Part shown: positions 16,083 through 20,644 of the stretch, piece after piece
Layout of the letters: every line of letters starts with the position of its first letter
Position numbering within the stretch: the first letter of the stretch is position 1
Virus record (IMG/VR): IMGVR_UViG_3300046170_000199
Span: 1-45,693 of that record
Length of the DNA stretch: 45,693 nucleotides
Source of the DNA: a virus
Reading direction: 5' to 3' (one strand)
Made by a program: the position numbers and the translations under genes
Notes under the pieces: generated by a model
What the model was told of the DNA's origin: nothing
Seen by the model: only the letters and a program-made list of their open reading frames with translations
Databases searched by the model: none

Positions 16083-16673
16083 ATGGGAATCTTTACTGAC
16101 GTACTATTATCTAAACCTGCAGACATAGAGTCTAATTCCAAAGAAGGAATAGAATGGTTTAAGAAAACACTTCAGAAAATGAGTAGGTCTAAGTTAAAGA
16201 ACATAAACTTACTTAGCGAAGAAACTGAAACTGATAATGTAAGAGATGATATCATAGGACACATGTATATGTTTGTATATGATGCATTGTATAAAGACGT
16301 TCTACCGTATTACGATAGATTTCCTTTAGTGATTCCAATGGATTTTACTAACAATGGTTTTATAGGGTTGAACTTACATTACATTGCACCCAAGTACAGA
16401 GCAATACTATTGGAAGAACTCTTCACCTTAATTAGTGATGAAGAATTAGATAGTGAAACACGATTTAAATTATCGTATGGTCTAATCAGTAAAGTATCGA
16501 GGTTCAAGTATGGGAAACCTTGTGTAAAAAGATACCTAACATCCCATATTGAAGGACAACTAGAAAGAGTTCTACCCATACATTGGAGTTTGGTTTCACA
16601 ATTACCAAGTGCAAGATTTGGAAAGGGCACGAATACGTTAACAGTTTACAAAGACAGTAGGAAACAATTTTAA
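16083..16673 (+). CDS. Conserved T4-like YDRFPL-family protein, possibly gp2-like DNA end protector
   Basis: A 196-residue protein with the core L-P-Y-Y-D-R-F-P-L-V-I-P-M followed by G-F-I-G-L-N-L-H-Y (about residues 75-102). I know this motif from T4-like phage proteins encoded beside gp4, where gp2, the protector of packaged DNA ends, also lies in T4. I cannot confirm it is gp2 itself. No enzyme motif is visible. It is basic toward the C-terminus (G-K-P-C-V-K-R-Y). Its stop overlaps the next start as TAATG. Expression is late, judging from the CATAAATA box. Confidence 0.5.
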   Translation: MGIFTDVLLSKPADIESNSKEGIEWFKKTLQKMSRSKLKNINLLSEETETDNVRDDIIGHMYMFVYDALYKDVLPYYDRFPLVIPMDFTNNGFIGLNLHYIAPKYRAILLEELFTLISDEELDSETRFKLSYGLISKVSRFKYGKPCVKRYLTSHIEGQLERVLPIHWSLVSQLPSARFGKGTNTLTVYKDSRKQF

Positions 16674-17380
16674 TGGGAACATCAATAGACAAATTCAAGT
16701 TCAACTTTGACCAAGGTGCAAGAAGCAATAGATTCTCTGTTGATATTCATTGTCCTAAACTCGGTTTCTCCTTAGAGGGTATACGAGTAGAAAGTTGTTC
16801 ATTGCCAGGCAGACAATTAACAACCAATCCATGGTCTGAATATGGTGTAAGACGTAATATGGTAACTGGAGAGATATTAGAAGATGGTGGAACTATAGAG
16901 TTGACCTTCTTATGTGATTCATCATTTGAGGATAGATTTTTGATTGAATCATGGAATAGTATTATCTATGAGAATGCAGGATTACAAGAAGGTACTACAA
17001 CCCATCCTATATTTGCATACTTAGATGACTACTCGGGAACAGTTAACATAGCACAATTAAGACATAACGATAAGGAAGCACTGACATACACACTAAATGA
17101 AGCATATCCATCTGCATTTGCACCTCAAGAAATGAGTCAAGGTGAAAGTGGGATTATGAAGTTCTCATGTACTATAAGTTTTAGGAATTGGACTTCGGAA
17201 TATAAAGCAGCACCTAAGTTGTCTGCACTAAATAAAGGAAGAAGAGCATTAAGAGGTTTTGCTGATGCACTAGGAACACTTGGAAGGTACAACAAAACTG
17301 CACAGAAATTTGCAGATAGGTTGACAAGAAATGATAGTAGACTAGGTAGGTTAGCAAATCTTTTTGGTGGAAATGGTTAA
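16673..17380 (+). CDS. 54: Tail tube initiator gp54 (tail-tube fold)
   Basis: A 235-residue protein with N-terminal tail-tube features: F-K-F-N-F-D-Q-G-A-R-S-N-R-F-S-V then V-E-S-C-S-L-P-G-R-Q and N-P-W-S-E-Y-G. This pattern is shared by gp19 tube and gp54 initiator proteins. Length and position next to gp48, gp26 and the tape measure favour gp54, which starts polymerisation of the tube on the gp48 cap. A basic C-terminal tail of about 45 residues (R-R-A-L-R-G-F-A onward) is not needed for the tube fold. The alternative is gp19, but gp19 proteins are usually shorter. Confidence 0.7.
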   Translation: MGTSIDKFKFNFDQGARSNRFSVDIHCPKLGFSLEGIRVESCSLPGRQLTTNPWSEYGVRRNMVTGEILEDGGTIELTFLCDSSFEDRFLIESWNSIIYENAGLQEGTTTHPIFAYLDDYSGTVNIAQLRHNDKEALTYTLNEAYPSAFAPQEMSQGESGIMKFSCTISFRNWTSEYKAAPKLSALNKGRRALRGFADALGTLGRYNKTAQKFADRLTRNDSRLGRLANLFGGNG

Positions 17381-17399: not shown

Positions 17400-18098
17400 A
17401 TGGGATTACCAATCCAAACAACACCCACATATAAATGTGTGTTGCCAAGTAGTGGAAGGGAAGTTAAGTACAGACCCTTCTTAGTTAAAGAACAAAAGAT
17501 TCTTTCAATTGCAAAAGAGAGTGAAGACCAAAAACAAATCTTTAATGCAATTAAAGACCTTATAGAAAGTGTTACATTTGGTGAAGTGTTTGTAGATGAC
17601 CTTGCAGTAATGGATTTAGAATATCTATTCCTCAAGACTCGTTCTGCATCAGTTGGTGAAACAACTACAATAAACACATCTTGTAGTGATACAAGTTGTG
17701 GAGGAAGTGTTACACTTAAAATCAATCTAGATGAGATTGAACCTAAAGGTGAACTAGCAGACAACAAGATTATGATAAATGATAATGTTGGTGTTACACT
17801 TAGACCACCTGTTGTCAAAAACATAAAGAGTTTAGGAAATGGTGAAGAAGCAGATGTAGTAGAAATTCTAACAGCATGTATTGAGTCAATATTTGATGAA
17901 GAGAATGTATACATGTCTGACGAAACATCAGATAAAGATTTATCAGAGTTTGTTGAGAGTTTGACATTTGGACAACTAGAACAACTTAGTATTTGGTTTG
18001 AGTCTTTACCAAAACTAACTTACACAACAAGTGGAGCTTGTGAAGTTTGTAGAAAAGAGACTACGAGAACACTAGAGGGATTACAGAGTTTTTTTTAA
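17400..18098 (+). CDS. 26: Baseplate hub/tape-measure chaperone gp26, zero-frame product
   Basis: A 232-residue protein of the gp26 family (T4 gp26 is 208). N-terminal V-L-P-S-S-G-R-E-V-K-Y-R-P-F-L-V-K-E-Q (about 14-32) and D-L-E-Y-L-F-L-K-T-R (about 76-85) are typical. Two Cys pairs (C-S-D-T-S-C near 98 and C-E-V-C near 217) could bind zinc. The C-terminus ends L-E-G-L-Q-S-F-F directly on a run of eight T bases. gp26 acts in hub assembly and is upstream of the tape measure, the position of tail chaperone G in other phages. A -1 slip on the T-run would join it to gp51. Confidence 0.85.
   Translation: MGLPIQTTPTYKCVLPSSGREVKYRPFLVKEQKILSIAKESEDQKQIFNAIKDLIESVTFGEVFVDDLAVMDLEYLFLKTRSASVGETTTINTSCSDTSCGGSVTLKINLDEIEPKGELADNKIMINDNVGVTLRPPVVKNIKSLGNGEEADVVEILTACIESIFDEENVYMSDETSDKDLSEFVESLTFGQLEQLSIWFESLPKLTYTTSGACEVCRKETTRTLEGLQSFF
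18089..18095 (+). promoter_or_regulatory. Putative -1 programmed frameshift site T_TTT_TTT
   Basis: The zero frame reads AGT TTT TTT TAA, so T_TTT_TTT is an ideal X_XXY_YYZ heptamer ending directly on the stop. In the -1 frame the sequence stays open to the stop at 18278-18280. A 6-bp hairpin (CGTGTT at 18118-18123 with AACACG at 18134-18139) lies about 22 bases downstream. This mirrors the G/GT tail-chaperone frameshift. Confidence 0.7.
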
Positions 18099-18280
18099 TA
18101 TCTCTTTCTCATGAGTCCGTGTTTAATTATTATAACACGAACTTTCAGTTAATGCAACACCACAAGTATTCATTAACAGAACTCGAAAACATGATGCCTT
18201 GGGAAAGAGAAGTATATGTCAAACTCCTTCTCAATTGGTTAGAGGAAGAAAAGGAACGACAGAAGAAACAAAAGAAATAG
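18095..18280 (+). CDS. 51: gp51-like hub assembly protein, read by -1 frameshift from gp26
   Basis: The -1 frame after the T-run encodes L-I-S-L-S-H-E-S-V-F-N-Y-Y-N-T-N-F followed by L-M-Q-H-H-K-Y-S-L-T-E-L-E and M-P-W-E-R-E-V-Y-V, ending in a charged tail (61 codons with the stop). This matches what I know as gp51 in marine T4-like phages. No start codon precedes the conserved part: the first ATG (18152, within L-M-Q-H-H) would drop the S-H-E-S and N-Y-Y segments and has no Shine-Dalgarno. A gp26-gp51 fusion made by frameshifting is therefore the better model; internal initiation at 18152 is the alternative. Confidence 0.7.
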   Translation, partial: LISLSHESVFNYYNTNFQLMQHHKYSLTELENMMPWEREVYVKLLLNWLEEEKERQKKQKK

Positions 18281-18328: not shown

Positions 18329-18715
18329 ATGGCAGACGAAAAGGAATATAAAGACCAGTCTAGTAACGAGGTCGAAATTGACTTAGATAAGTATATGGCA
18401 CTTATCGAGAAACTTGATGAACAAGAAGATGTCATCAAAGAGATGAAAGAAGATGCTATCAAAGCAAAACGTGGACTAGAACCACCTAAACGAAAGTTTA
18501 TGGATTTGTTTTTAGATGACAATGACCTTAATGAAAAGGCAATTATTGGATTCATCTCATTCTTCCTAATGGTAGTGTTTGGTATGACTGACTTAGTCAC
18601 TGCACTAGTATGGGACATGGACTTAAAAGTATCAGAAACAATTTACACATCATTTGTTGTAGTAACACTTGGTGCATTCGGTATATCAGAAGCAGGAAAA
18701 GCATTCGGTAAATAG
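18329..18715 (+). CDS. Two-helix membrane protein with acidic helical N-terminus, tail block
   Basis: A 128-residue protein. Residues 1-60 are charged and helical (possible coiled coil, D-E-Q-E-D-V-I-K-E-M-K-E-D). Then come two hydrophobic segments, I-I-G-F-I-S-F-F-L-M-V-V-F-G-M (about 71-90) and Y-T-S-F-V-V-V-T-L-G-A-F-G-I (about 105-120). TTAGAGGA is a fair Shine-Dalgarno. In T4 the gene between the hub chaperones and the tape measure encodes gp28, a membrane-associated hub-tip protein. The two-helix architecture also fits a holin. I cannot decide between these and see no direct homology. Confidence 0.6.
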   Translation: MADEKEYKDQSSNEVEIDLDKYMALIEKLDEQEDVIKEMKEDAIKAKRGLEPPKRKFMDLFLDDNDLNEKAIIGFISFFLMVVFGMTDLVTALVWDMDLKVSETIYTSFVVVTLGAFGISEAGKAFGK

Positions 18716-18724
18716 GAAACATAA

Positions 18725-20644
18725 ATGGCAGTCGAAAAAGAACTTTCTAAACTAGTTAATAATCTAAACAAAACTAATAGACAATTAGTTGAGTCTAGAA
18801 AAGCATTAGGTAAGGAAGCACAAAAAGAACTTGCAACACAAATCAGTGAACAAAAGACTGAGTTCTCTTCATTTCTCGCAAGTAGAAAAATGAAGAAAGC
18901 AGAATTGAATTTTGATAAAACAAAACTCGAAGATGCACAAAGAATACATGAAGCAAATCTCAAAATGCAAGAGAATGCCATTAAGAATGACCCTGCTCTG
19001 AAATCTATGAAGTTAGAAGAAGACCGAATTAGAGAAGAACTTAGACTAAATGAACAAAGTTCCAACAATGCAAAAAAGAGAGAAAGACTTAATAAAGAAC
19101 TTAATGAGAATATTAAAGAGCAATCAAGCCAAAGACAAACAGTAGAGGGTAAGTTTTCAAATGTTGTCAATCAAAGTTCAGAAAATCTTGAGTCTGCAAC
19201 CAAAGAGTATACAGATGTTTTAAAAGAAGCAGGTGAAAGTCAAGCTTTCAATAAGTTTACAGGTGGTATTAAAACACTTACGGGTGGATTAGTTGACATT
19301 GCACCAATCTTTGATGATGTATTAAAATATGCAAATGCAATTAAAGATGTAACTACGAGTATAATAGAATTTACTGGTAATCTTGGTGGCACGTTTGAAG
19401 GTATTGATAGGGTATTTGGTCAAGACACTACAAACGAGATGAGAAAGGGACTTCAAAACGGATTTAAGAACCTATTTAGTGATATGTTTACGGTTCTTGG
19501 TGCTGGGTTGGTAAGATTCAGTACAGTTTTCGGTGCATTCTTTTCAAGTGTTGGACTTGTCTTTTCAACATTACTATCGGGTGATGCTGAGATGTTAGGT
19601 GTTGTATTTAAAAACATGTTCAAAAAATTCGGTGATTTAGTCAAATTTATACTTTCAGGTTTTACTAAACTAATTCTTGCACCATTCCAGTTGTTGACAA
19701 GAGCTGTTGGGTTCATGGTAAACAGTCTCTTGATTCCAATCGTAACAGGTTTAACTGCAATTCTAAAAACTATATTAACGGGTGTTTTGTTAGCACTTAG
19801 AACAGCAGTCGTTGCACTTGTAGGTGCAATTGCAGGTTTAGGAGCCCCGTTCCTCATAATAGCAGCTGCTGTTGCACTTCTTGGAATTGCAATAATTCTA
19901 TCTTGGGAGTACTTAAAAGAAAAATTCTATGCCTTTACAGATAAGATGAAAGAGATAGGTACAAAGATAGGTGACTTTGCTAGTAATATGGGTGACAAGA
20001 TTATGGAGTCTTTTCAGAAAGCTATTGATAAAGTAAAAGACCTCGGTGGAAGATTGGGGAGAAGGATTCTAAAATTCTTTGGATTTGGAGGTGATGAAGA
20101 AATCGACACATCTGTAAAAAAAGAAGGTGAAGAATACGTTCCTATGACTAAAGAAGAACGAATGAAATACATGGAAAATGATTACAAGGTAACTGGCGAA
20201 GGTGTTGGATATAATCCCGAAGAAGGCACCGTTGATATGGAGGCACTTGCAACTGGTAGTTTTACAAAACAGATGTTACAAGACCTTTTAGATACTGACA
20301 ATCTAACAGATGATTCTCGTTCAGCAATAGAACTAGAAATGAGACGTGAAAAATATAATACTGATATCCTTACAAGATTAGAAGCTTCCATGGAGGGTCT
20401 AGTATGGGATAAAGACTCTATGACATATATGTCTGCAATGGACTATGCCATGAGAACTCCTAATACTGGTGGTGAGATTGAAGATAGAACTATAGAGTTA
20501 AATGAAGCTGAAAAACAAAGTGGTGGGAATGTAAATACTCTTATTAAGGGTGGAGATACTGTATCATCAAGTACTACATTTATACCACCTTCAGGCAATC
20601 CAAGAAATAATGAACCTTCTGCAGCAAGAGGTGCTGGTGGTTAA
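18725..20644 (+). CDS. 29: Tail tape measure protein, gp29-like
   Basis: A 639-residue protein, near the T4 gp29 length (590). The first 170 residues are charged, heptad-like helix. A hydrophobic stretch at about 325-395 (I-V-T-G-L-T-A-I-L-K-T-I-L-T-G and A-L-V-G-A-I-A-G-L-G-A) provides the membrane-active segments typical of tape measures, which enter the host envelope during injection. The C-terminus is disordered and Gly/Ser/Asn-rich. It follows the gp26/gp51 chaperone pair as expected. It converges on a minus-strand gene; the two stop codons share bases at 20641-20644. Confidence 0.85.
   Translation: MAVEKELSKLVNNLNKTNRQLVESRKALGKEAQKELATQISEQKTEFSSFLASRKMKKAELNFDKTKLEDAQRIHEANLKMQENAIKNDPALKSMKLEEDRIREELRLNEQSSNNAKKRERLNKELNENIKEQSSQRQTVEGKFSNVVNQSSENLESATKEYTDVLKEAGESQAFNKFTGGIKTLTGGLVDIAPIFDDVLKYANAIKDVTTSIIEFTGNLGGTFEGIDRVFGQDTTNEMRKGLQNGFKNLFSDMFTVLGAGLVRFSTVFGAFFSSVGLVFSTLLSGDAEMLGVVFKNMFKKFGDLVKFILSGFTKLILAPFQLLTRAVGFMVNSLLIPIVTGLTAILKTILTGVLLALRTAVVALVGAIAGLGAPFLIIAAAVALLGIAIILSWEYLKEKFYAFTDKMKEIGTKIGDFASNMGDKIMESFQKAIDKVKDLGGRLGRRILKFFGFGGDEEIDTSVKKEGEEYVPMTKEERMKYMENDYKVTGEGVGYNPEEGTVDMEALATGSFTKQMLQDLLDTDNLTDDSRSAIELEMRREKYNTDILTRLEASMEGLVWDKDSMTYMSAMDYAMRTPNTGGEIEDRTIELNEAEKQSGGNVNTLIKGGDTVSSSTTFIPPSGNPRNNEPSAARGAGG

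Follow-up and report, generated by a model that had tools for sequence, protein, structure and literature searches.

Genes 26 and 51 of a marine T4-like phage as a probable frameshifted tail assembly chaperone gene

Introduction

According to a 2016 review (PMC5009743), frameshifting of the G-T type, as in gpG/gpGT of phage lambda, is conserved among phages with long tails 'except T4'. Tail assembly chaperones (TAC) of T4-like phages were reportedly identified by Vladimirov, Gautam & Davidson (2022; doi 10.1016/j.virol.2021.11.003). In the passages of later papers that cite that work, some T4-like phages are said to encode the short and the long form in two genes rather than by frameshifting (PMC10274946), and poly-T slippery signals are mentioned in the TAC-N genes of T4-like phages (PMC12846349). 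A review of T4 counts gp26 and gp51 among the chaperones of hub assembly, notes that the finished particle lacks gp51 and also cites genetic work that places gp26 in the hub (PMC3004832). Cyanophage gp51 has about 20% of the length of T4 gp51, the first ~200 residues being missing, and in a 2010 comparison gp51 was listed as absent from phage Aeh1 (PMC3037559).

Here we describe the gp26-gp51 locus of an uncultured marine relative of T4, in which gp26 is <60% identical to that of any phage record searched. The whole stretch of DNA analysed, 45,693 nt long, is referred to as the window. The phage records examined either present gp26 and gp51 as two distinct hub proteins or omit gp51, and the joined product appears in no annotated one. 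From sequence comparison, we propose with a probability of about 0.87 that gp26 and gp51 form a single recoded gene, from which −1 ribosomal frameshifting yields a pair of tail assembly chaperones in the manner of gpG/gpGT.

Results

The gp26-gp51 junction in the window

The original prediction held that gp26 ends on T_TTT_TTT with the stop codon directly behind it and that the −1 frame is open into gp51, and both statements were borne out (Table 1). The 3′ end of gp26 reads AGT TTT TTT TAA, with eight Ts at 18089-18096, and the −1 frame is open from TTA (18095) to TAG (18278-18280). The 61 residues encoded there (LISLSHESVFNYYNTNFQLMQHHKYSLTELENMMPWEREVYVKLLLNWLEEEKERQKKQKK) matched PHROG_634, 'baseplate hub assembly catalyst', with an E of 1.3e-27, and a Pfam search with gp51 gave no real match; the predicted gp26-gp51 fusion has 293 aa. 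A stop immediately after the heptamer is typical of the clade of the window, most relatives carrying one extra sense codon. The idea that the run of eight Ts is a sequencing slip specific to this contig was refuted, as the same run is found in contigs L001-L025.

Table 1. Features of the gp26-gp51 region (positions in the window)
Feature	Position	Strand	Basis
Tail tube-type protein (gp19/gp54-like)	16673..17380	+	PHROG_45 tail tube, E 3.8e-23
gp26, putative short form (TAC-N), 232 aa	17400..18098	+	PF12322 T4_baseplate, E 4.7e-52; PHROG_150, E 6.6e-56; hhalign of marine gp26 profile against T4 gp26, E 3.6e-24
Shine-Dalgarno-like AGAGGG, ~11 nt 5′ of the slip codons, candidate upstream stimulator	18074..18079	+	GAG bias; anti-Shine-Dalgarno pairing
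Slippery heptamer T_TTT_TTT	18089..18095	+	T_TTT_TTN in 46/48 non-redundant gp26 genes
gp51, putative TAC-C domain, −1 frame, reached only through the shift	18095..18280	+	PHROG_634; homology to T4 gp51 203-244; third-position bias
TAA, zero-frame stop	18096..18098	+	Read from the sequence
Stem-loop	18113..18144	+	Stems 18113-18116/18141-18144 and 18118-18123/18134-18139; compensatory pairs; low energy
128-aa ORF between gp51 and tape measure gene	18329..18715	+	No significant family match
Tape measure protein	18725..20644	+	Top PHROG hits: tail length tape measure families, E 2.9e-9

Conservation of the slippery heptamer

The gp26 sample comprised 80 viral-contig loci, 14 named phage records and the window (95 in total), from which a redundancy cut at <80% identity left 48 gp26 genes with pairwise identities of 17-76% (median 36%). 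In all 80 contig loci, an in-frame T run was located just 5′ of the stop and the −1 frame was open beyond it. Alignment of the junction in other T4-like phages, the check suggested with the original prediction, revealed a conserved slippery run, with T_TTT_TTN in frame and 0-2 codons away from the stop in 46 of the 48 non-redundant genes, compared with six occurrences at the 10,926 other codon positions of these genes. Given the amino acids and the codon use of each gene, the choice of slippery codons had a combined P of about 1e-22, and Phe at the slip site was encoded by TTT in 46/46 cases vs. 330/479 elsewhere (p 1.5e-7), values whose strength is overstated because related sequences were treated as independent. 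When three distant gp26 sequences were used as queries, each scan recovered only two loci.

The two exceptions among the 48 genes were Serratia phage phiMAM1 (L091) and Vibrio phage K474 (L092), which have gp26 and a gp51-like −1 frame but no heptamer, K474 having an overlapping TAATG. Another slip site or reinitiation may be in use in these two phages.

Coding constraint and start codons of gp51

In the clade of the window, the differences at −1-frame codon positions 1, 2 and 3 numbered 748, 326 and 2251, respectively; as judged from the sequences, the −1 frame is under protein-coding constraint. The statement that gp51 lacks a start before its conserved part also held in the window, where no ATG was found 5′ of this part and the sole candidate, GTG 18119, is located inside the conserved segment without a Shine-Dalgarno match. 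A conserved, normal ATG with a Shine-Dalgarno sequence in homologues, which had been named as evidence against the frameshift, was not what the 46 genes revealed: no ATG, GTG or TTG preceded the conserved gp51 motif in 19 of them, only GTG or TTG in 15 and an ATG in 12, at scattered positions.

In four loci (L085, L087, L090 and L093), the gp26 stop is part of a TAATG or TGATG, which places a −1-frame ATG beside an intact heptamer, and two routes to gp51 may coexist there.

Signals flanking the heptamer

Upstream of the heptamer, the Glu codon of the conserved LEG motif was GAG in 22/35 cases vs. 251/970 elsewhere (p 7e-6). The GAGG/GGAGG element also paired more strongly with the anti-Shine-Dalgarno sequence than synonymous recodings did (Wilcoxon p 5.7e-5). 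Preference for GGG at the Gly codon of this element was not significant.

Downstream, the anticipated hairpin was indeed present (Table 1). Among 15 aligned sequences from around the clade of the window, three of its pairs were changed on both sides, all at −1-frame third positions, and pairing was kept in 88% of cells vs. 41-53% when the structure was slid. The stem in the window begins 17 nt past the heptamer, which is farther than usual for a stimulator. Compared with synonymous recodings, the stretch 3′ of the heptamer had an excess of stability (mean z −1.7; p<=0.05 in 20/46 genes), which was concentrated in the initial ~50 nt of gp51 and faded beyond them. No hairpin register shared by all lineages emerged when one was sought, the stem-loops of other lineages being located elsewhere within this same stretch. 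A dnaX-like signal of three parts (Shine-Dalgarno-like element, U_UUU_UUN and stem-loop) may have been selected across T4-like phages, with a stem-loop that shifts in position and sequence between lineages, a proposal to which we give even odds.

Gene order

The genes in the window are arranged as tail tube, gp26, gp51, 128-aa ORF and tape measure. The pair had been placed just before the tape measure gene; its position between the tail tube and tape measure genes was confirmed, but the 128-aa ORF intervenes. This ORF has hydrophobic stretches that by eye resemble two membrane helices, and comparison with the similarly placed ORFs of phiN3 and S-SKS1 gave no match.

Relation to T4 gp26 and gp51

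The marine gp26 profile matched not only T4 gp26 (Table 1) but also residues 4-198 of T4 gp51 (E 8.7e-11). In further profile comparisons, T4 gp26 matched the N-domain of T4 gp51 (E 1.2e-15), and marine gp51 matched T4 gp51 residues 203-244 (E 3.3e-7). According to these homologies, T4 gp51 is composed of a gp26-like domain and a gp51 domain, and T4 gp26 is thus the counterpart of the short form and T4 gp51 that of the long form, encoded by two genes. In the T4 record (L082 3803-5229), genes 26 and 51 are located back-to-back on opposite strands and are paralogous over about 200 residues. In Aeromonas phage Aeh1 (L110 2501-2617), an unannotated gp51 domain was detected in the −1 frame after T_TTT_TTC. 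The reading of T4 as a two-gene version agrees with the short cyanophage gp51 and the missing Aeh1 gp51 of PMC3037559.

An AlphaFold model of gp26 had a pLDDT of 85. A PDB fold search with it gave no match at E <= 0.001 and very low TM-scores, a search that bears on fold kinship and not on the frameshift or the role of the protein. The viral fold search returned gp26 relatives and a T4-type 'hub assembly catalyst' of Acinetobacter phage ZZ1 (E 8.2e-5).

Discussion

The proposal of a −1 frameshift pair is supported by the conservation of the heptamer codons, the constraint on the −1 frame, the absence of a conserved start in gp51 and the flanking signals. Most ribosomes would stop at the TAA to yield gp26 (232 aa, TAC-N), and a fraction would slip back one base on U_UUU_UUU to yield gp26-gp51 (293 aa, TAC-NC), probably aided by the upstream Shine-Dalgarno-like element and the downstream stem-loop as putative stimulators. 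If the parallel with lambda gpG/gpGT holds, the tape measure protein would be coated by gp26, and tail tube subunits would be recruited by the extra gp51 domain. The occurrence and efficiency of the shift, the part of each stimulator and the binding by the chaperones are what we infer here. That gp26 and gp26-gp51 are tape measure chaperones, as originally predicted, is the most likely reading, to which gene order and the short/long paralogy of T4 gp26 and gp51 lend support.

Several records annotate gp51 as a gene of its own, and ribosomes that have terminated at the gp26 stop could reinitiate at a gp51 start codon, which in the window would be GTG 18119, to make a separate protein. Some of the 12/46 ATGs before the conserved motif overlap the stop as TAATG or TGATG, in line with such a route. 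However, the 19 genes without any candidate start, the scattered positions of the others and the rarity of Shine-Dalgarno matches argue against it; a start of its own would also leave the codon constraint on the heptamer unexplained, and in T4 gp51 the domain is fused to a gp26-like part. We consider an independent start very improbable. Slippage of the RNA polymerase on the eight Ts, instead of the ribosome, appears marginally less probable still. It is possible in the clade of the window, where the run is that long, but unlikely at the junctions with only six Ts, which make up 32/48 of the non-redundant set and still keep the codon phase and the flanking signals.

A further explanation accepts both forms but regards them as structural or catalytic proteins of the hub rather than chaperones of the tape measure protein, as in the historical annotation and the genetic work on T4 gp26 cited in PMC3004832. 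This is improbable, though less so than the two former explanations: the same paper also counts both proteins among the assembly chaperones and states that the particle lacks gp51, and the gene order and the short/long pairing match those of known chaperone loci.

The preferred reading, one recoded chaperone gene, would if adopted correct several hundred T4-like records (618 with gp26 and 570 with gp51). It would account for a cyanophage gp51 of ~20% of the T4 length and for the gp51 'missing' in Aeh1, and it offers a clear test of why T4 uses two genes. The abstract of the 2022 study by Vladimirov, Gautam and Davidson reportedly names genes 26 and 51 and states that several groups of T4-like phages have retained frameshifting. 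The core idea is already published for T4-like phages, and because that model precedes ours, the pair in the window is to be taken as a further case of a known frameshifted chaperone system. What is added here is the detail of the recoding signals and the unannotated gp51 of Aeh1.

Among the described systems close to that of the window are these published T4-like chaperones, with which, as they are described in papers citing the 2022 work, it shares the predicted short/long pair and the poly-T slippery signal. The domains of T4 gp26 and gp51 are homologous to those of the window, but in T4 they are encoded by two separate, divergent genes that need no frameshift. The TAC locus of Vandenendeviridae and Andersonviridae, with an invariant GTTTTT and an open −1 frame before the tape measure gene (PMC12846349), resembles that of the window in motif and gene position, although these are other phage families. 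Finally, in lambda gpG/gpGT, as is proposed for the window, the −1 shift takes place close to the 3′ end of the first of the two genes, and both loci are situated between the genes for the tail tube and the tape measure protein; they differ in gene order by the 128-aa ORF that the window has 5′ of its tape measure gene.
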